NCBI RefSeq assembly: GCF_018408705.1 | Contig: NZ_AP023420.1 | Location: 2,728,001-2,792,000, forward strand | Direction: 5' to 3' | Source: Pusillibacter faecalis | GTDB taxonomy: Bacteria; Bacillota; Clostridia; Oscillospirales; Oscillospiraceae | Length of the DNA stretch: 64,000 bases | Part shown: piece after piece, positions 56,215 to 64,000 of the stretch | How positions within the stretch are numbered: the first letter of the stretch is position 1 | Layout: every line of letters begins with the position of its first letter | The notes under the pieces: generated by a model | Database searches by the model: none | What the model was told of the DNA's origin: nothing | What the model saw: the letters and a program-made list of their open reading frames with translations, nothing else | Program-made: the position numbers and the translations under genes

Positions 56215-57954
56215 ATGAAAAAACATACTTTCAAACGGCTGTTAGGGTACCTGAAATCTCACAGGATACGGCTGTTTTTCGTCTTGCTGTTTGCTTCTGT
56301 CAGCACCATTTTCACGGTAATGGCCCCGTTCGTGATCGGCAAGGTCACGACAACCTTATTCGATAGCATCCGGGATGGCGTGTTTTACTGGGAAACCATT
56401 CTTTGGCTGCTTGCGGCGTTGGTATGCCTGTACCTAGTATCGCAGTTCTTTTCGTTTTTACAGGGCTTTTATATGGCGAAGATTACTGCCAATGTCATGC
56501 GTAAAATTAGAAGTGACATCGATGGGAAAATGCACAGATTGAAATTGAATTACTATGACACACATACCCACGGCGACATTCTCAGCGTAATCACCAACGA
56601 TGTCGATACCATCAATAATACCGTCAGCCAGAATCTTACTTCCATTGTTACGCAGGTGATCACAGCAATCGGTATCCTTTTGATGATGCTGGCAATCAGC
56701 CCAAAGCTGACGATCATTCCAATCATCATGGTGCCGCTGTCGCTGCTCAGCGCAGCGGGCGTTATGAAGGCTGGAAGCAAATATTATGAAAAACAACAGG
56801 AGCTGTTAGGGCGGCTCAATGGATATATTGAAGAAATGTACAACGGCCAGCAGGTTGTCCAATCCTTTAGCTATCAGGGCAGAGCAAAGCAGAACTTTTC
56901 TGCTTTGAATGAGGAATTGAAAAACAGTTCCTACAAAGCAGAAACAACCGCAGGAGCTGTCGGCCCAATTACCACCCTAGTCAATGATATGGGTTACGTG
57001 GTTTGTGCTGTAATCGGCTGTCTGGGTGCTATTGGCGGCCTTATCACGGTAGGAAATGTACAGGCTATGTTGGAGTACACCCGCCGGTTTGCCGAACCGT
57101 TTTCCTCGTTGGCAGGTATGGCAGGAAGCTTTGGCGCAGCCAAAGCTGCAGGAGACCGTATTTTTGCTTTGCTGGACGCAGAGGAAGAGTTACCGGACGC
57201 AGAACATGGTATCATTCCAAAAGATCGCTCCGGCAGCGTGACGTTCCAAAATGTTCGGTTCGGATATACACCTGACCGTATGCTGATGAACGGTGTAAAT
57301 CTGATAGTCAAGCCCGGCCAGAAGGTTGCGATTGTGGGACCGACCGGCGCGGGCAAAACCACGCTGATCAACCTGTTGATGCGCTTTTATGAGATTAACG
57401 GCGGAACTATCACGGTGGACGGCGTCAATATACAGGATATGCCAAGAGAAGAACTGCGGGACCGTTTCGGCATGGTGCTGCAGGACACATGGCTTTTTGA
57501 GGGGACGATTGCCGACAACGTGGGATACGCAGAAGAAGGTATGAACAAAAATAAAATTGTCGCTGCGGCAAAGTCGGCCTGTGCGCATAATTTTATCAAA
57601 ACGCTACCCAATGGATATGATATGGAACTTTCCAAAGGAGCGGAAAACATTTCACAAGGAGAGCGCCAGCTTCTCACTATCGCCCGTGCTATCGCTTCCG
57701 ATCCGGAAATTATGATTCTGGATGAGGCCACAAGTAATGTGGATACCCATACAGAGGTTTTAATCCAGCGCGCCATGGCGCAGCTTATGAAAGGACGCAC
57801 TAGCTTTGTCATTGCCCATAGACTTTCTACCATTCGTGATGCCGATATGATTTTGTACATGGAGGATGGTAGTATTAAGGAAGTCGGAAATCACGACGAA
57901 CTGATGGCAAGGGACGGGAAATATGCGGCCCTTTATAACAGTCAATTTGCATAA
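56215..57954 (+). CDS. ABC exporter, permease-ATPase half 2 (catalytic site)
   Basis: 579-residue partner half-transporter. Six-helix domain plus ATPase with Walker A GPTGAGKTT, a changed signature ISQGERQ and intact Walker B MILDEATSNVD with catalytic Glu. The pairing of one degenerate and one intact site is characteristic of heterodimeric multidrug exporters. ATG at 56215 is one base after the stop of half 1, with GGAAAGGAGG upstream; a longer frame inside half 1 is less likely. Confidence 0.93.
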   Translation: MKKHTFKRLLGYLKSHRIRLFFVLLFASVSTIFTVMAPFVIGKVTTTLFDSIRDGVFYWETILWLLAALVCLYLVSQFFSFLQGFYMAKITANVMRKIRSDIDGKMHRLKLNYYDTHTHGDILSVITNDVDTINNTVSQNLTSIVTQVITAIGILLMMLAISPKLTIIPIIMVPLSLLSAAGVMKAGSKYYEKQQELLGRLNGYIEEMYNGQQVVQSFSYQGRAKQNFSALNEELKNSSYKAETTAGAVGPITTLVNDMGYVVCAVIGCLGAIGGLITVGNVQAMLEYTRRFAEPFSSLAGMAGSFGAAKAAGDRIFALLDAEEELPDAEHGIIPKDRSGSVTFQNVRFGYTPDRMLMNGVNLIVKPGQKVAIVGPTGAGKTTLINLLMRFYEINGGTITVDGVNIQDMPREELRDRFGMVLQDTWLFEGTIADNVGYAEEGMNKNKIVAAAKSACAHNFIKTLPNGYDMELSKGAENISQGERQLLTIARAIASDPEIMILDEATSNVDTHTEVLIQRAMAQLMKGRTSFVIAHRLSTIRDADMILYMEDGSIKEVGNHDELMARDGKYAALYNSQFA

Positions 57955-57999
57955 TCATAATTACATATAAAACAACTGTCAAATTCAAAGAGAAAAAAT

Positions 58000-58039
58000 A
58001 AATTCCCGTAGGCGGTCGATACGCCTACGGGAATTTTTT
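58000..58039 (+). terminator. Terminator of the ABC exporter operon
   Basis: 14-bp perfect stem AATTCCCGTAGGCG/CGCCTACGGGAATT around GTCGATA, followed by TTTTTG. The inverse side (AAATT) can serve minus-strand transcripts from the AIPR side. Confidence 0.88.
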
Positions 58040-58070
58040 GTAAATATAAACTAATGTTTACGCTTGCTTT

Positions 58071-58365
58071 TCACATCTTTTCGTATTTTTCTCTCGGGAT
58101 AGATTTGGATCTTTTTTCCAACGCACAACTAATTTGTTGAACAAAAGACGGATCATTGTATGGAGAAATTCGAAATTCATAATCCATAGTAGTATCGCCT
58201 TGTAATGAGATATTGTGAGTGAAATATAGCATAAAAGAGTGAAAAAGGCAAAGTAGAAGCTTTAATTCCTACCCTTAGCACATTTTCACCAGAAATGATA
58301 AATCCGAACACATTACCCATCTGGATAATGTAGTTCGGATTATCATTGTTTGGTCGGAGTGTCAT
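58071..58365 (-). pseudogene. Small disrupted gene downstream of the AIPR gene
   Basis: Minus-strand frame from ATG 58365 (MTLRPNNDNPNYIIQMGNVFGF...) runs smoothly for about 50 codons, then by a shift near 58230 continues as LYFTHNISLQGDTTMDYEFRISPYN to a stop at 58071. Read together it gives one compact protein of about 95 residues. Composition is AT-rich like the AIPR gene, 76 bases upstream on the same strand. No family recognised; the join is my interpretation, and two separate short genes remain possible. Confidence 0.35.
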
Positions 58366-58441
58366 TTAAGGGCTTCAGAAAATCACAAACGCAAAAATGG
58401 TATTCAGGTACGGATAATCAGTATTCCATAAAATTTGCCTA

Positions 58442-60433
58442 TCAAACTGGAACAACATCAACAGCTTTATAATTTCCAAATTTATCTTTGACTATGCTGT
58501 ATAAAACTTCATGTGCATATAGATTGGAGAAATTTAAACCTGGATTATCCTGTTCGTGAAAGAAAATGTTGTCTGGTAACCTGGAAATAAATCCATAGTA
58601 TCTTCCGTTTCTATCAAATCCGGTTTTAATTACCGTTCCACGATACTGCAGAGGTTTCTCTTCGATTATATCTACTTTCTGCTGGGTATGAACATACTCT
58701 CTTAGATAATTGAAGAATTCAGTAGAGTCTTTCATCCCATATTTGTAGCTCTGACCCTTCTCTTCGATCCACTCTTGCTGAGCATTTGTAAAGAGCCGAC
58801 AGGTCCTATTTAGAGTTTCATTCCATGTTTTTTCATCCAGAAGTTTCTCTTTAAGCTGTTCGCAGTACTTGTCAATTTCTTTTTCATTATTTATTGTCGG
58901 GGTATTGGGGGCCAATAATTCTTTTACTAACCAACAAAGATGCATCCTATATGGAACTAGTTCTTTAGGAATTGTATTTGCCCTATATTCGTGTTCAATC
59001 ATAGAAAAGATTAGGGCTGCCATATAATATGGGTATTTTGATTGTGAGTCGACAAATATTTTGTTGCGGTATTCTTGTAGAAGTTTTGATTCATGCCTGT
59101 GCCCTTTAAAGGGTTCACTCAAAAAAACACTCACAAAACTTTGCAAAATTCCTCGCAAATTTACTTTTTCAAAAGGCTTAATAGTTGGATTATTAAAGTA
59201 TTGCTTGGAACGCCGTTCATAAAATAGCTTTATGCCTGTCTCCGTTGCAAGGGCATTAAACAAGTCTTCTAAATCTTTGTGGAACTGTCTGGTGATTTCA
59301 AAGGCCTCATCATATACAATGTTTTGGCGGTTTGTGCCCTTTACAATACTATTTGTAATCTCTAGGCTTCTCGTTGCAATTACTTTAGCAATTATCGTCA
59401 CATGGGATAAATCGTACCCATGTTTGCTTGCCTCGTAAATTACATTGCAGGTTTGGCAGCCGTTAACAACTTGAGGATTTTTAATTGTTATTTTGCGGTT
59501 ACCGCTCCCAATTTCATCACAAACAATAGTAATTCCATTGTTAAGAAGCACAAAGCTAAATGGATCATTTTGAATTGTGGTTAGAATATCTTGGTTAATC
59601 GTTGTATCCCCTTGATAATCTCTCACATTATCATCAAATAGGCTTTTTCTAATGAGACCTTCTTCCGATACAAGAAGTTTTAATAGCTCTGTGGCACTGC
59701 AAAGAACGATGCTTGAATTATCAACATCATCAACAGCGGTTAGTGAAAATGTATCTATGACATTCAAAACAACAGAAAAAGCGTTCTCGTTCTCGTCAAT
59801 AATTCTCTTGAAACTACTCGTATCTATATATTGGATAGCTATATCACCATAAGTTTCGAGGGCAGCTATATCTTTTTCTATCTTTTGAGAAATTGCAATT
59901 ATGTGGGGGCTTTCTTCCCAAGTCCCCATCACAACATAATAAAGTCGAACATCTGGATTTCGCGTCCAGCGCATCATAACTTGATCGCTCATTAAATATT
60001 CTTTTATAGATAGCCATTCCTGAATGCTATCATTATTAGGCTGGAAATGATCTTCTCCTAAAAAGTCAACAACACCATTTGTAAATTTGGCATATTCTCC
60101 TGAGTCGAACTTTTCTTTGTATTTTGACTGGATAAAAATAAATTCAATGTCTGCTTTATTGTATCTTTCAAATATATCCTTTGCATCCTGTAAAGTATGT
60201 ATGAGCAAACCGTTTAGCTTAATGCAAATTCCGTCGAGCCCCATATCGTTTTGCCCACCGACGCAAACGGCATCCAAAAGTGAGTCGTCTACACTAAATG
60301 CACCGGGTTGATGGGTCGACAGGATAACTTGATTAGCAAATCTTTCAAATGCTACTCCATCTGATACATTTTGAAGCTCATAATCTTCACGGAATTTGGC
60401 GAGTTTTACTCGGACTATCGGTTGTAATTTCAT
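58442..60433 (-). CDS. AIPR-family protein: Mrr-like nuclease, AIPR domain and C-terminal cold-shock-like domain
   Basis: 663-residue protein of the abortive-infection phage-resistance (AIPR) family. Residues 25-110 resemble a restriction-endonuclease fold: Glu30, Asp67 (GLDG) and Gln102-x-Lys104 (FIQSK) form an E-D-QxK pattern. The middle has FVLLNNGITIV and the family hallmark NPQVVNGCQT (319-328). The last 65 residues look like a cold-shock/OB domain: YYGFI and NIFFHEQD match RNP1/RNP2-like motifs, and YKAVDVVPV the closing strand. Likely a single-protein phage defence that cleaves nucleic acid. GGAGG precedes the ATG. AT-rich base use differs from neighbours, indicating transfer. Confidence 0.85.
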   Translation of the reverse strand: MKLQPIVRVKLAKFREDYELQNVSDGVAFERFANQVILSTHQPGAFSVDDSLLDAVCVGGQNDMGLDGICIKLNGLLIHTLQDAKDIFERYNKADIEFIFIQSKYKEKFDSGEYAKFTNGVVDFLGEDHFQPNNDSIQEWLSIKEYLMSDQVMMRWTRNPDVRLYYVVMGTWEESPHIIAISQKIEKDIAALETYGDIAIQYIDTSSFKRIIDENENAFSVVLNVIDTFSLTAVDDVDNSSIVLCSATELLKLLVSEEGLIRKSLFDDNVRDYQGDTTINQDILTTIQNDPFSFVLLNNGITIVCDEIGSGNRKITIKNPQVVNGCQTCNVIYEASKHGYDLSHVTIIAKVIATRSLEITNSIVKGTNRQNIVYDEAFEITRQFHKDLEDLFNALATETGIKLFYERRSKQYFNNPTIKPFEKVNLRGILQSFVSVFLSEPFKGHRHESKLLQEYRNKIFVDSQSKYPYYMAALIFSMIEHEYRANTIPKELVPYRMHLCWLVKELLAPNTPTINNEKEIDKYCEQLKEKLLDEKTWNETLNRTCRLFTNAQQEWIEEKGQSYKYGMKDSTEFFNYLREYVHTQQKVDIIEEKPLQYRGTVIKTGFDRNGRYYGFISRLPDNIFFHEQDNPGLNFSNLYAHEVLYSIVKDKFGNYKAVDVVPV

Positions 60434-60452
60434 GGCAATTCCTCCAAGTTAT

Positions 60453-60514
60453 ATTTCGACAGATATTCCAAGTTTAATTATTATACATTATATCATATTT
60501 AGTCGAAATGTCCA
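60453..60514 (-). promoter_or_regulatory. Promoter and operator candidate of the AIPR gene
   Basis: Minus strand TGGACA (60509-60514), 16-base spacer, TGATATAAT extended -10 (TATAAT 60487-60492). An 8-bp inverted repeat ATTTCGAC (60453-60460) / GTCGAAAT (60502-60509) flanks it, one arm touching the -35, so a repressor could silence the gene. Confidence 0.65.
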
Positions 60515-60592
60515 CAAAATGCTTGCTGTAGTTAATTGCAAATCAAAGCTTTTCCAAAGAACCATAAAGCCCACTTCATCGCATTACAGTAA

Positions 60593-60613
60593 TTTGGGAC
60601 AAAATGTCCCAAA
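60593..60613. repeat. 21-bp palindrome, copy 1
   Basis: TTTGGGACA-AAA-TGTCCCAAA, perfect arms. First of four related copies (also 61323-61343, 63155-63175, 63725-63745) differing only in the central bases. Confidence 0.85.
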
Positions 60614-60640
60614 CTGGTTCCCTTTACATGGCTCGGGTAG

Positions 60641-60780
60641 TATATCCCCCGTCGCCGCATATTGTTCAGAACAGCCGGGAGCTGTCTGTCAAGGGTGCAT
60701 AACACCGCCGTTATACGGCGGCTTGCCCTTGACTGACGGCCCCGGTTGTTCTATTTTCTGGCGGTGTGACGGGGGAATAT
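60641..60780 (+). other. 140-nt near-continuous inverted repeat (structured RNA or regulatory hairpin)
   Basis: Arms pair in order: ATATCCCCCGTC with GACGGGGGAATAT, GCCGC with GCGGT, GAACAGCCGGG with CCCGGTTGTTC, GTCAAGGG with CCCTTGAC, ending in the tip hairpin CCGCCGT/ACGGCGG (60705-60721). A further stable stem follows at 60793-60825. It precedes the broken cysteine-rich gene and looks like the leader of a conjugative-element transcript. No protein frame is supportable inside. Confidence 0.6.
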
Positions 60781-60855
60781 CCTCCAGAGCCGCCCCCTTT
60801 CCCAATCTTGGGAAAGGGCGGGGGGATAGGGTTGAACACCACGGAGGTTTTACTT

Positions 60856-61024
60856 ATGAATTTTACCAACAGCCCCTATGAGCGCATGATGAAAGAAGTC
60901 CCTCACTATTAAGAAGCCCGCCCCGCAGAAGGCCCCGGAAGAATCGCCTTGTGCGGGGTGATCTTATTGGAGGGGGATTACCTGTGTTTTCTGCTATCGA
61001 AAGCACCTCAAAAAGCAGTGCTAA
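60856..61024 (+). pseudogene. Broken small cysteine-rich protein of conjugative elements
   Basis: ATG behind GGAGG opens MNFTNSPYERMMKEVPHY then a stop; one base on, KKPAPQKAPEESPCAG, a second stop where Cys is expected, then SYWRGITCVFCYRKHLKKQC to the stop at 61024. The paired CxGC and CxxC cysteines and N-terminal NSPxExMM are typical of a short protein in Tn1549-like elements. A one-base deletion and one nonsense change inactivate it. Confidence 0.6.
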
Positions 61025-61321
61025 TAATTTAGCATTTGGCCCAGAATGGAGCTTGGTTTGCAAGGGGGGCTGAGCACAGTTTTAGCGGGGGCAATATGAT
61101 TTCCTTACCCACCCTCGATCTTCTAAAATACTGCTAACATTTTGTTCCGGAGCAGCGGAGGCGCTGCGTGGAAAACTAAGCTGTAAAAACACCCCGTCTA
61201 CAAGGGCCTGCGGGCATAGTTTTAGAGCGGCTAATACAATTCCCTTACTTGCTTATTTTGGACGAAACACTTTCCACATCTGGCGAACTGGGGACGGTTA
61301 AGCCCATCCGCTAGCATTTCT

Positions 61322-61344
61322 CTTTGGGACAATTTGTCCCAAAG
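61322..61344. repeat. 23-bp palindrome, copy 2
   Basis: CTTTGGGACA-ATT-TGTCCCAAAG, same arms as the other three copies with an added C/G pair at the ends. Confidence 0.88.
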
Positions 61345-61547
61345 TTAAGGCCTTTGGGCCGCAGACAATTACATCGGGGCTCCCGCCGAAGCCCAGCGCC
61401 AGCGGGTTCGGTGGGGAGAGGAGGCGCAGCAGAGCGAGGGAGAAAGCGGCTTTGGCCGGTTGCGAAGGATGCGGAGCTTGCGCCGACGAGGGTTTGGGGA
61501 AGCTCCCCAACAAGCGTTTTTTGTAGCATCTCGGGCTGCAAAAAATA

Positions 61548-61572
61548 GCAAGTGTGGCCACACTTGCCCTGC
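61548..61572. other. Candidate transfer origin (oriT-like) site
   Basis: Perfect 20-bp palindrome GCAAGTGTGG-CCACACTTGC followed at once by CCTGC. An inverted repeat directly next to a TTGCCCTGC-like core resembles the nic region of MOB-P-type origins, in which the relaxase binds the arm and cuts beside it. The relaxase is not visible, so this is a structural guess. Confidence 0.35.
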
Positions 61573-61636
61573 TTGCTGTTAGTGTACTCCCGTATAACCT
61601 CTATGGATTTGACGTGACTTGTCTGCCTTTTCTTCG

Positions 61637-61665
61637 TTGACTTTTTCTATAATTTATAGTATTAT
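61637..61665 (+). promoter_or_regulatory. Promoter of the PadR operon with internal dyad
   Basis: TTGACT (61637-61642), 17-base spacer, TATTAT (61660-61665). A 13-bp palindrome CTATAATTTATAG (61647-61659) fills the spacer, and ACTTTATAGT follows the -10; both are plausible PadR operators for autorepression. Confidence 0.75.
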
Positions 61666-61693
61666 ACTTTATAGTAAAGGGGGGATGATATGT

Positions 61694-62230
61694 ATGTCAT
61701 CCATTGATTTAGTGATTTTGGGGATTGTGCTGGAAAAGCCCCAAAGTGCCTATGACATTCAAAAAGATATTGAGTACCACAATTTCTCCCGCTGGACAAA
61801 AATCAGCATCCCATCTATCTACAAAAAAGTGCTCCAACTAAAAGAAAAAGGCTATCTTACGAGCGATGTGGTAAAGGGAGAGCGGTTTGCTGAAAAGGCA
61901 ATTTACTCGATTACCGATGCCGGGAGAGCCTACTTTGAAACGCTGATGGACACTATCGCTGAACAGAATGTGCCGCTTACCTTTGACTTCAATGTGGTGA
62001 TTACGAACCTCAACAAAATGGATCGCCCTCATGCCCAAGCCCTTGTCAGCAAGCTGCGGAAAAGTATTCTTGCATCTGCGGAAAAAAACGAGGGGTATGC
62101 ACAGCAATATGCAGACATTCCCTTGGTAGGCCGGACAATCTTTGACCAACAGCGCCTTTTGTATCAAGCGCTGTTGGCATGGCTGGATTCTTTTTCGACC
62201 CAGTTTTCCGAAGAAGGGAACGCCACGTAA
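61694..62230 (+). CDS. PadR-family transcriptional regulator
   Basis: 178-residue PadR-like repressor with winged HTH (SSIDLVILGIVLEKPQSAYDIQKDIE...SIPSIYKKVLQLKEKGYL) and a C-terminal helical dimerisation part. The ATG at 61694 fits the GGGGGG ribosome-binding site better than the ATG 9 bases earlier, which touches it. Its promoter carries dyads suited to autoregulation. It shares one base with the downstream YjdF gene (TAATG), so the two are co-translated. Confidence 0.88.
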   Translation: MSSIDLVILGIVLEKPQSAYDIQKDIEYHNFSRWTKISIPSIYKKVLQLKEKGYLTSDVVKGERFAEKAIYSITDAGRAYFETLMDTIAEQNVPLTFDFNVVITNLNKMDRPHAQALVSKLRKSILASAEKNEGYAQQYADIPLVGRTIFDQQRLLYQALLAWLDSFSTQFSEEGNAT

Positions 62231-62643
62231 TGGCACGAAGTACCCTAACGGTATTCTTTGAAAATCCATTTTGGGTCGGGGTCTACGAGCGTGTTGACGG
62301 CGATCGATATGAGGTTTGCAAAATTACTTTTGGAGCGGAGCCAAAGGACTATGAGGTATGGGATTTCCTGCTCAAAAATTGGAGCAAGTTGAAATTCAGC
62401 CCACCCATCAAAGCTGAACGAGTTGAGGAGCGGAAGATCAATCCCAAACGAATGCAGCGGGAGATCCACAGTAAGTTGCAGGAGCCCGGAATTGGGACAA
62501 AGGCACAGCAGGCATTGAAATTGCAGCATGAACAAAACAAATTGGAGCGTAAAACCATAAGCCGTGAGCAGCGGGAAGCAGAAAAAGAACGGCAATATGA
62601 ATTACGCCCACAGAAAAAGCGGGATAAACATCGGGGCCGCTGA
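62230..62643 (+). CDS. YjdF-family (DUF2992) protein
   Basis: 137-residue basic protein beginning MARSTLTVFFENPFWVGVYER, the opening of the YjdF family; KITFGAEPKDYEVWDFL is also conserved. The C-terminal half is a long charged helix rich in Lys, Arg and Gln, possibly nucleic-acid binding. In some Firmicutes yjdF follows an azaaromatic-sensing riboswitch; none is evident here, and a PadR regulator precedes it instead. Function unknown, with a role in handling toxic aromatics suggested for the family. Confidence 0.85.
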   Translation: MARSTLTVFFENPFWVGVYERVDGDRYEVCKITFGAEPKDYEVWDFLLKNWSKLKFSPPIKAERVEERKINPKRMQREIHSKLQEPGIGTKAQQALKLQHEQNKLERKTISREQREAEKERQYELRPQKKRDKHRGR

Positions 62644-62651
62644 ATGGGGGG

Positions 62652-62846
62652 ATCAACACGGAAAAACGAGATTGGATTTTATGCCCGGCGTGTGGCAGCA
62701 AAACACGCCTGCAAATACGGTCAGATACCGAACTGATACACTTTCCTCTGTACTGCCCCAAGTGCAAGAAAGAGTCATTGATCAATGTAAAACAGCAAAC
62801 GGTATTGGTTATCAAAGAGCCAGACGCTTTAACGCAGAGCCGATAA
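62652..62846 (+). CDS. Cysteine-rich KTR-domain protein, start codon apparently lost
   Basis: 64-codon frame giving DWILCPACGSKTRLQIRSDTE..., CPKCKKESLINVKQ and ending KEPDALTQSR, the cysteine-rich KTR protein found in Firmicute conjugative elements (zinc ribbon CPxC...CPKC). The expected initiation point, right after GGGGGG at 62646-62651, reads ATC-AAC-ACG-GAA; no in-frame ATG, GTG or TTG exists before the first cysteine. Either ATG has mutated to ATC or an unusual start is used. It follows the YjdF stop by 8 bases. Confidence 0.7.
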   Translation: MNTEKRDWILCPACGSKTRLQIRSDTELIHFPLYCPKCKKESLINVKQQTVLVIKEPDALTQSR

Positions 62847-62879
62847 CACAGGATCAAATCCTGATGTTATCGGCTTTTT
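62838..62879 (+). terminator. Terminator of the PadR-YjdF-KTR unit
   Basis: AGCCGATAACA/TGTTATCGGCT (62838-62848 with 62865-62875) plus inner CAGGAT/ATCCTG, followed by TTTTTC. It overlaps the KTR stop. Confidence 0.9.
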
Positions 62880-62961
62880 CATGTTTATATCGCCTTATTA
62901 TCTGCCCGGCGGCAGAAAAGAAAAAACCGCCGTGGGCAGATCATTCACTATGCTCTAAGGC

Positions 62962-63005
62962 AGGACACGGCGGTATCCGGGAGGTATCGCCGTGTCCTTT
63001 TCCTT
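62962..63005 (+). terminator. Terminator hairpin
   Basis: AGGACACGGCG/CGCCGTGTCCT (62962-62972 with 62988-62998) followed by TTTTCCTTTTT. No intact gene lies directly upstream, so it may back up the previous terminator. Confidence 0.7.
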
Positions 63006-63153
63006 TTTCCATCCGCCTAATCTGTCAAAAAAGCCCGTCCGCACTATGGGGACAGTCCGGCAGCGGATGCGAAATATGGCAGTACCTAAATAAATTTGTC
63101 ATTTCATGCGCTTACGTGTCGCCTTGCCACACAGGCGCATTTCATTTTCTTTA

Positions 63154-63176
63154 CTTTGGGACAACTTGTCCCAAAG
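63154..63176. repeat. 23-bp palindrome, copy 3
   Basis: CTTTGGGACA-ACT-TGTCCCAAAG, flanked by A and T that extend the symmetry by one more pair. Lies 75 bases before the sigma-like gene. Confidence 0.9.
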
Positions 63177-63251
63177 TAAGTCCCCGCTGCCGATCCCCAC
63201 CAGCTTCGTTCAGATCGCCCATTCACAAAAATCTGAACGGAGGTACATAAA

Positions 63252-63674
63252 ATGACTACCATCAATCTCAAAGACTTTTACCCTTGGTACACCCAGGATG
63301 AATATACGGAAGTTTCCGATGAAGTGGCAGAAGAACTGAGAGCCAACAAGCGGTATGAGGCCGCCTATCGCCGCCGTGTGACCCGCAACAAGGCACAATA
63401 CTCCTTGGACTGTGACGACGGGATCAAGTATTCCGCCTGTGTCTTTGAGCCGTCCCCGGAGGAATTGGTGCTGCGAGCAGAACGATTTTTCTATCTTTGG
63501 AACGCATTGAACACCCTACCCGAGATGCAGGGACACCGTGTGGAGGCTTGTGTCATTGCCGACAAAAGCTATGCCGAGGTTGGTCGGGCCGAGGGCGTAC
63601 ATAGCGGCTCGGTGCGCGGCTCCGTCCTGCGGGGCCTTGAGAGCATGAAAGAATATCTGAAAGAAAACTGGTAA
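63252..63674 (+). CDS. Sigma-70-like (region 4) protein of a conjugative element
   Basis: 140-residue protein with a C-terminal sigma region-4-type helix-turn-helix (KSYAEVGRAEGVHSGSVRGSVLRGLESMKEYL) and an N-terminal helical part (YTEVSDEVAEELRANKRYEAAYRRRVTRNKAQYSLDCDDG is the family-type linker region). Such proteins occur in Tn1549-like elements and probably set transcription of transfer or excision genes. GGAGG precedes the ATG at 63252. Region 2 is not recognisable, so it may be a regulator rather than a full sigma factor. Confidence 0.78.
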   Translation: MTTINLKDFYPWYTQDEYTEVSDEVAEELRANKRYEAAYRRRVTRNKAQYSLDCDDGIKYSACVFEPSPEELVLRAERFFYLWNALNTLPEMQGHRVEACVIADKSYAEVGRAEGVHSGSVRGSVLRGLESMKEYLKENW

Positions 63675-63723
63675 TGACGGTTAAAATCATCCGATGTTTT
63701 GTCCTTGGTGTATGAGGGGTGAA

Positions 63724-63746
63724 CTTTGGGACAAGTTGTCCCAAAG
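63724..63746. repeat. 23-bp palindrome, copy 4
   Basis: CTTTGGGACA-AGT-TGTCCCAAAG, again with an extra flanking A/T pair. Lies 49 bases after the sigma-like gene and 90 bases before the TnpW-like gene. Confidence 0.9.
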
Positions 63747-63836
63747 TCCCCCTCATGGGAAAGAACCGAGGGGCGGTGCTGTGCGCCGTCCCTTGGTTTT
63801 TATCTATCTGTGCGAAAGGAGGCGTAATGCCGGAGC

Positions 63837-64000
63837 AGTACACCTATCAAGTGGGCAAAATCAATTTCATTGTTACCCCGGTCTATAAGGACAAGCGGTC
63901 GGGCGAAACGATGAAAGACATCCTCTTAAAGCTCATGCTGGCAGACTTGGAAAGCGGCGACATCCTTAACATCGGGGGTAAGCGGAGGTACAATATACTT
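63837..64000 (+). CDS. TnpW-like small transposon protein, truncated by window edge
   Basis: ATG behind GAAAGGAGG opens MPEQYTYQVGKINFIVTPVY, then KDKRSGETMKDILLKLMLADLE. The Y-x-Y-x-VG opening, V-x-P/F strand and S-x-ETM-x-DK/I helix match transposon-encoded TnpW-type proteins of about 50-60 residues. The frame is still open at base 64000, so the protein is either longer than usual or ends just outside. Function of the family unknown. Confidence 0.6.

Follow-up and report, generated by a model that had tools for sequence, protein, structure and literature searches.

Within the 64,000-nucleotide stretch of the Pusillibacter faecalis genome analysed here (contig NZ_AP023420.1, positions 2,728,001 to 2,792,000; hereafter the window), a minus-strand gene encodes a protein of the AIPR/AbiU type that, judged by profile matches, predicted structure and conserved residues, is a three-part member of the AbiU phage-resistance family, joining a predicted nuclease to a probable nucleotide-binding switch and a cold-shock-like tail. 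The division into nuclease, AIPR and cold-shock-like domains had been put forward in a preliminary description of the locus and is supported by our data. What that description missed is that the three-part architecture is family-wide rather than special to the window gene, and that a sister clade retains the AIPR and cold-shock domains alongside a dead nuclease.

Anatomy of the protein and its family

The AIPR identity of the window protein is certain. PF10592 (AIPR, Pfam) matches it with 146.6 bits against a gathering score of 25, and also matches 39/39 members of sequence set A1; the reading frame and AIPR assignment are those of the preliminary description. The PADLOC AbiU model (PDLC02357; AbiU1/AIPR; E = 1.4e-103) aligns over nearly its full length, pairing residues 6-557 with model positions 5-515 of 537; the match thus takes in almost the whole of the N-terminal and AIPR parts and stops ahead of the cold-shock domain (CSD). 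A single-sequence search of the PDB with the window protein returned no relative at E ≤ 10. In a search of 5.8 billion protein sequences, 7991 candidates were scored and 1464 of them proved to be relatives at E ≤ 1e-3; the 120 relatives listed underlie the family counts of conservation and tail presence given here. Among these 120, the lowest identity to the window protein is about 45% over the full length and the source names include Oscillospiraceae, Methanimicrococcus, Ruminiclostridium and Ignavibacteria; the window gene is part of a widespread branch of the AbiU family.

The N-terminal domain is predicted to adopt the restriction-enzyme-like fold of PD-(D/E)XK nucleases and carries conserved E30, D67, Q102 and K104 (Table 1), bearing out both the nuclease fold and the Mrr-like E-D-QxK pattern that had been suggested for it. 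FokI, MspJI and the N-terminus of Avs4 have this fold in common with the window protein by predicted structure; they lack AIPR and cold-shock domains, and their sensor parts differ. In the available text of a 2012 paper, AIPR proteins were assigned an N-terminal HEPN domain (PMC3506569). For the window protein this identity was rejected on the match of the model to PD-(D/E)XK enzymes, which argues that its N-terminus is a predicted PD-(D/E)XK nuclease, not HEPN. The middle domain, as modelled, is probably a ParB/sulfiredoxin-like nucleotide-binding fold, a feature that had also escaped the preliminary description; N324, G325 and Q327, within its NGCQT motif, are invariant across 87/87 aligned AIPR proteins.

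For the C-terminal tail, the predicted structure contains the five-stranded barrel of a CSD, in line with the OB/cold-shock fold proposed earlier, and includes YYGFI and FFH, which we take to be RNP1-like and RNP2-like motifs, respectively. PF00313 gave no match at E ≤ 10 on the full window protein and 14.4 bits on the isolated tail; because this falls below the gathering score of 27, we name the domain "cold-shock-like", by its fold and its relatives. Of the family tails, 26/30 match PF00313 at E ≤ 1, a profile of tails retrieves the true CSDs of Unr (7.9e-5) and Csp (3.1e-4), and the A2 profile found four PDB sequences at E ≤ 10, every one of them a CSD protein. The C-terminal domain is present in 118/120 listed relatives, the two exceptions being shorter (462 and 463 residues); since this count used a profile built from 30 tails of the same family, it speaks for homology of the tails and not for CSD identity. 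By these sequence comparisons the tail is a family trait, and it looks suited to holding single-stranded RNA or DNA.

A survey of the best 80 of 301 GTDB loci (L002-L081) plus 13 viral contigs revealed AIPR tails that vary by lineage. The tails were labelled by eye (canon, bact, t4 and t5) and ten such proteins were scanned with Pfam, where the cut-off is 27 bits. Strong canonical CSDs were seen in four of the ten (66.9-75.7 bits), from Nitrospinota, Thermodesulfobacteriota, Nitrospirota and one viral contig; the two "bact" tails scanned (53.4 and 40.7 bits) and the two "t4" tails (30.9 and 28.4 bits) also lie above the cut-off. With the two "t5" tails, one below the cut-off (L040, 20.6 bits) and one lacking a CSD match (L045), this gives a match in 9/10 proteins, L040 included. 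In an unrooted quick tree built from the core with the tail removed (87/90 rows, omitting the incomplete L013 and L026 and the near-duplicate of the window, L002), CSD presence or absence must change at least four times, and starred branches force three changes for the tail-less group; because the tree is unrooted, gains and losses of the CSD look alike in it. L044 and L023 are long branches in this tree.

Table 1 Features of the AIPR/AbiU-type gene and its surroundings (window coordinates; counts refer to listed homologues)
Feature	Position	Strand	Basis or conservation
AIPR/AbiU-type gene, 663 aa, ATG start	58442..60433	-	ORF (open reading frame) and profile matches
PD-(D/E)XK (Mrr/FokI-like) nuclease domain, predicted, residues 1-235	59729..60433	-	structure model
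E30, catalytic-type glutamate	60344..60346	-	118/118 with a residue there
D67, catalytic-type aspartate	60233..60235	-	117/118
Q102-S-K104, QxK motif	60122..60130	-	Q 119/119, K 119/119
AIPR region, residues 236-592	58658..59728	-	core ~240-385 models as ParB/sulfiredoxin-like, then helical part
NGCQT, residues 324-328	59450..59464	-	strand-to-helix turn of ParB-like core (secondary structure)
Cold-shock-like domain, residues 594-663, five strands	58445..58654	-	profiles and predicted structure
YYGFI, residues 612-616, presumed RNP1-like	58586..58600	-	G614 117/118
FFH, residues 624-626, presumed RNP2-like	58556..58564	-	F625 115/118, H626 116/118
Mobile block, 2.4 kb	58353..60754	.	95.5% nucleotide identity to L002 9686-12081

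A sister clade that has lost the nuclease residues

The sister clade comprises 13 loci (L027, L029-L035, L037, L042, L046, L047 and L053; for example, L030 8001-11914), each of which has a gene for an AAA_15-type ATPase upstream of its AIPR gene, with a gene of about 227 codons called between the two in 11/13. The nuclease residues are gone from the clade's AIPR proteins (E30 in 0/12, D67 in 0/13, Q102 in 0/13), with a lysine in column 104 in 7/13, whereas 73/74 rows outside the clade, all but L044, have both D67 and K104. The AIPR motifs are nevertheless retained in 13/13 clade proteins, as are G599, G614, F615, I616 and F625 of the CSD (13/13 each; H626 in 6/13). Because the nuclease-dead clade keeps its CSD, the domain seems useful beyond feeding a built-in nuclease.

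In the three members scanned, the ~227-residue protein gave neither a PADLOC match nor a Pfam match above cut-off; none of its 82 relatives has a precomputed Pfam domain, and a search for PDB sequence relatives found none at E ≤ 10. In an alignment of 92 sequences, D74 (91/91), position 93 (D in 89/91, E in 2/91), K95 (91/91) and Q110 (92/92) are conserved, and together they resemble a PD-(D/E)XK site. Read most simply, these patterns would mean that cutting has moved to a new subunit, while the AIPR-CSD protein has been kept for recognition or switching. The clade's ATPase, scanned in three members, best matches PD-T4-4_A (6.7e-37), and its small partner shows a D...(D/E)xK pattern, resembling WonAB/PD-T4-4, which the available text of PMC12137116 describes as a two-gene system. 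We found no existing name for the three-gene set of ATPase, ~227-residue protein and nuclease-dead AIPR-CSD protein, and by eye no OLD-type ATPase gene lies next to the window gene, although one is present in the sister clade. A broader proposal, which we put forward tentatively and regard as somewhat doubtful, is that AIPR-CSD may form a portable recognition-and-switch module, in which a ParB-like nucleotide switch and a cold-shock reader of single-stranded nucleic acid drive either their own or an outsourced nuclease; in the Lachnospiraceae-rich sister clade it would then be the third gene beside an OLD/WonA-type ATPase and a ~227-residue PD-(D/E)XK-like protein.

Transfer and genomic setting

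The AT-rich base use noted for the gene in the preliminary description is real (GC 0.363, and 0.321 at third codon positions, against 0.521 for the window), and its suggestion of transfer was borne out. The gene was found in 1/60 genomes, its own, being absent from 36 congeners (some incomplete, 56-100% complete) and 23 genomes of the same order. A 2.4-kb block carrying it is the sole match between the window and the 22 kb of L002, from Ca. Gallacutalibacter stercoravium, where the block lies 60 bases past a tRNA-Pro gene. DNA beside the block in L002 (13000-16200) is 64-66% identical to the window's genome over two short pieces, and a chromosomal protein there (L002 12846-14069) has 61% identity to its counterpart, as against 98% for the AIPR protein; the genomes are therefore distant and the gene has moved. 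The block is a unit transferred between distant bacteria. Divergence between the two AIPR copies (dN, non-synonymous, 0.0063; dS, synonymous, 0.089) indicates that selection maintains the protein.

Rightward of the gene there are a sigma-region-4-like gene that scores below cut-off, a weak match to TnpW and a split serine recombinase gene; then come an Mrr_cat restriction gene (1.7e-24), more serine recombinases and, past the end of the window at about 72.8 kb in its numbering, a tRNA-Pro. In a contig covering the region right of the window (L095 8110-16694), the serine recombinase gene is interrupted by a second insertion of about 6.8 kb, which carries the Mrr_cat restriction gene and two serine recombinase genes; the tRNA-Pro comes after the interrupted gene. 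Judged by eye, the neighbours of the window gene include an ABC exporter pair and a PadR-like regulator, and no operon partner was seen in the window. A fixed empty site was considered and rejected: among the 24 congeners searched, none has a close counterpart of the left ABC exporter, the best match reaching 42% (G003). A 21-base palindrome, TTTGGGACAAnnTGTCCCAAA, occurs at window positions 60593-60613, 61323-61343, 63155-63175 and 63725-63745, these being four of its five exact sites genome-wide, within 3.2 kb beside the AIPR gene (reversed control pattern, 0). Upstream of the gene, a GC-rich stretch with inverted repeats is conserved in both copies (window 60630-60754, L002 9686-9800) and has no Rfam match at the gathering threshold, nor does any Rfam element reach that threshold in 57900-64000.

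The preliminary description had also suggested that this is a defence gene. A defence setting holds for some relatives: in L028, Septu PtuA (5.3e-162) and PtuB (9.7e-65) directly precede the AIPR-CSD gene, which PtuB overlaps by 4 bases; in L036 an Old ATPase (9.6e-93) lies 57 bases ahead of the AIPR gene, and in L058 a DNA methylase (by eye) 30 bases ahead. It does not extend to a recurring partner, none being found in the window's own clade of loci. We compared neighbours at 54 CSD-bearing loci, leaving out the window and the close relatives L029, L032, L034, L047 and L053, and taking as near up to two ORFs (100-900 residues) per side within 3 kb and as far the same beyond 6.5 kb; the sets (near, 148 of 184 proteins from 44 loci; far, all 118 from 45 loci) are imperfectly matched. 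Among the best 25 families of 473 (near) and of 162 (far), and with overlapping PADLOC ATPase models, the Old and AriA models match 10 near proteins and the GajA model 9, while among far proteins AriA PDLC02980 matches 2 and an ATPase-Toprim model 3, with Old not among the best 25 far families, whose last entries have one member. Mad3 does not distinguish the sets (7/148 near, 6/118 far), and the far set too contains restriction, BREX and AbiE genes. By direct comparison, 8/10 near ATPases come from the nuclease-dead operon clade, against 2/116 among other near proteins and 0/118 far; the ATPase excess near CSD-bearing AIPR genes is therefore real, yet mostly the property of one operon clade.

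Two further arrangements were observed. The PtuA-PtuB-AIPR-CSD genes at L028 2587-6699 form a possible three-gene Septu variant. In Anaerovibrio lipolyticus DSM 3074 (L060 9923-13173), a CSD-less AIPR gene is followed, after 25 bases, by an ATPase gene and a gene for a 171-residue ELK-motif protein; these two are perhaps the OLD-ABC ATPase and novel REase cited from this strain in the available text of PMC12137116.

Proposed mechanism and significance

Building on the gene and its predicted domains, their conservation, purifying selection, transfer and the defence neighbours of some relatives, we propose that the window gene encodes a stand-alone, horizontally acquired AbiU/AIPR-family nuclease directed against phages (or mobile elements) and gated by nucleoside triphosphate (NTP), whose tail would engage single-stranded nucleic acid that infection exposes. 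The ParB/sulfiredoxin-like core would act as a nucleotide-binding switch restraining the nuclease; the CSD would bind the abundant single-stranded nucleic acid of infection (phage mRNA or single-stranded DNA replication intermediates); this binding would license or direct cutting of nucleic acid by the N-terminal PD-(D/E)XK domain; and the outcome would be abortive infection or restriction. Our confidence in this model is evenly balanced, because the tail may either trigger the cutting or only target it.

The alternative in which the CSD only holds substrate, bringing the nuclease to RNA or single-stranded DNA while activation comes from elsewhere (NTP state or a phage protein), is the strongest of the rivals, if still unlikely. 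CSDs are generic binders, and the CSD is missing in 27/87 AIPR proteins, 26/27 of which keep the nuclease site and therefore need another trigger; retention of the CSD by the sister clade after loss of its own nuclease site (13/13) speaks the other way. Rather improbable is that the protein's chief targets are plasmids or competing mobile elements, or that it serves its carrier in competition, and that it does not act on phages: serine recombinase genes within a few kilobases, transfer as a compact block, and AIPR relatives in 79/72,556 plasmid records and 12/50,697 phage records fit this view, against which stand the anti-phage genes adjoining some relatives and the description of AbiU1/AIPR as an abortive infection system in the available text of PMC3506569. 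Autoregulation by the C-terminal domain, through binding of its own mRNA or autoinhibition of the nuclease, would accord with the translational role of CSDs elsewhere and with the need to restrain a stand-alone nuclease that has no evident antitoxin, but finds no direct evidence or Rfam element around the gene and is very improbable.

The NTPase-nuclease defence systems SspE, BrxU/GmrSD and DndBCDE-DndI have other nuclease parts and no CSD, and SspE and the DndBCDE-DndI entry superpose poorly on the window protein (best-row root-mean-square deviations of 16.7 and 7.3 Å). MzaE of the MZA system (NF041935) has an AIPR domain in common with it; membership was rejected at 45.1 bits against an NCBIfam equivalog cut-off of 1050, and inspection by eye of the ORFs in 50-64 kb showed no MZA partner genes, no profile search being aimed at them. 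CoCoNuT Type IV restriction systems, predicted to target RNA, likewise join CSD-like OB folds to nuclease-bearing defence proteins, but they have a McrBC GTPase core, and the word AIPR is absent from the main text as available (PMC11090510). The parts and the family are already known; no description of an AIPR-CSD fusion turned up in the literature searched.

In the available parts of the cited literature, we met no explanation of how AIPR/AbiU proteins detect infection. The family-wide cold-shock-like domain offers a concrete candidate for the trigger or the target, namely single-stranded nucleic acid. The sister clade, with its dead nuclease, may serve as a natural experiment in which recognition and cutting come apart.
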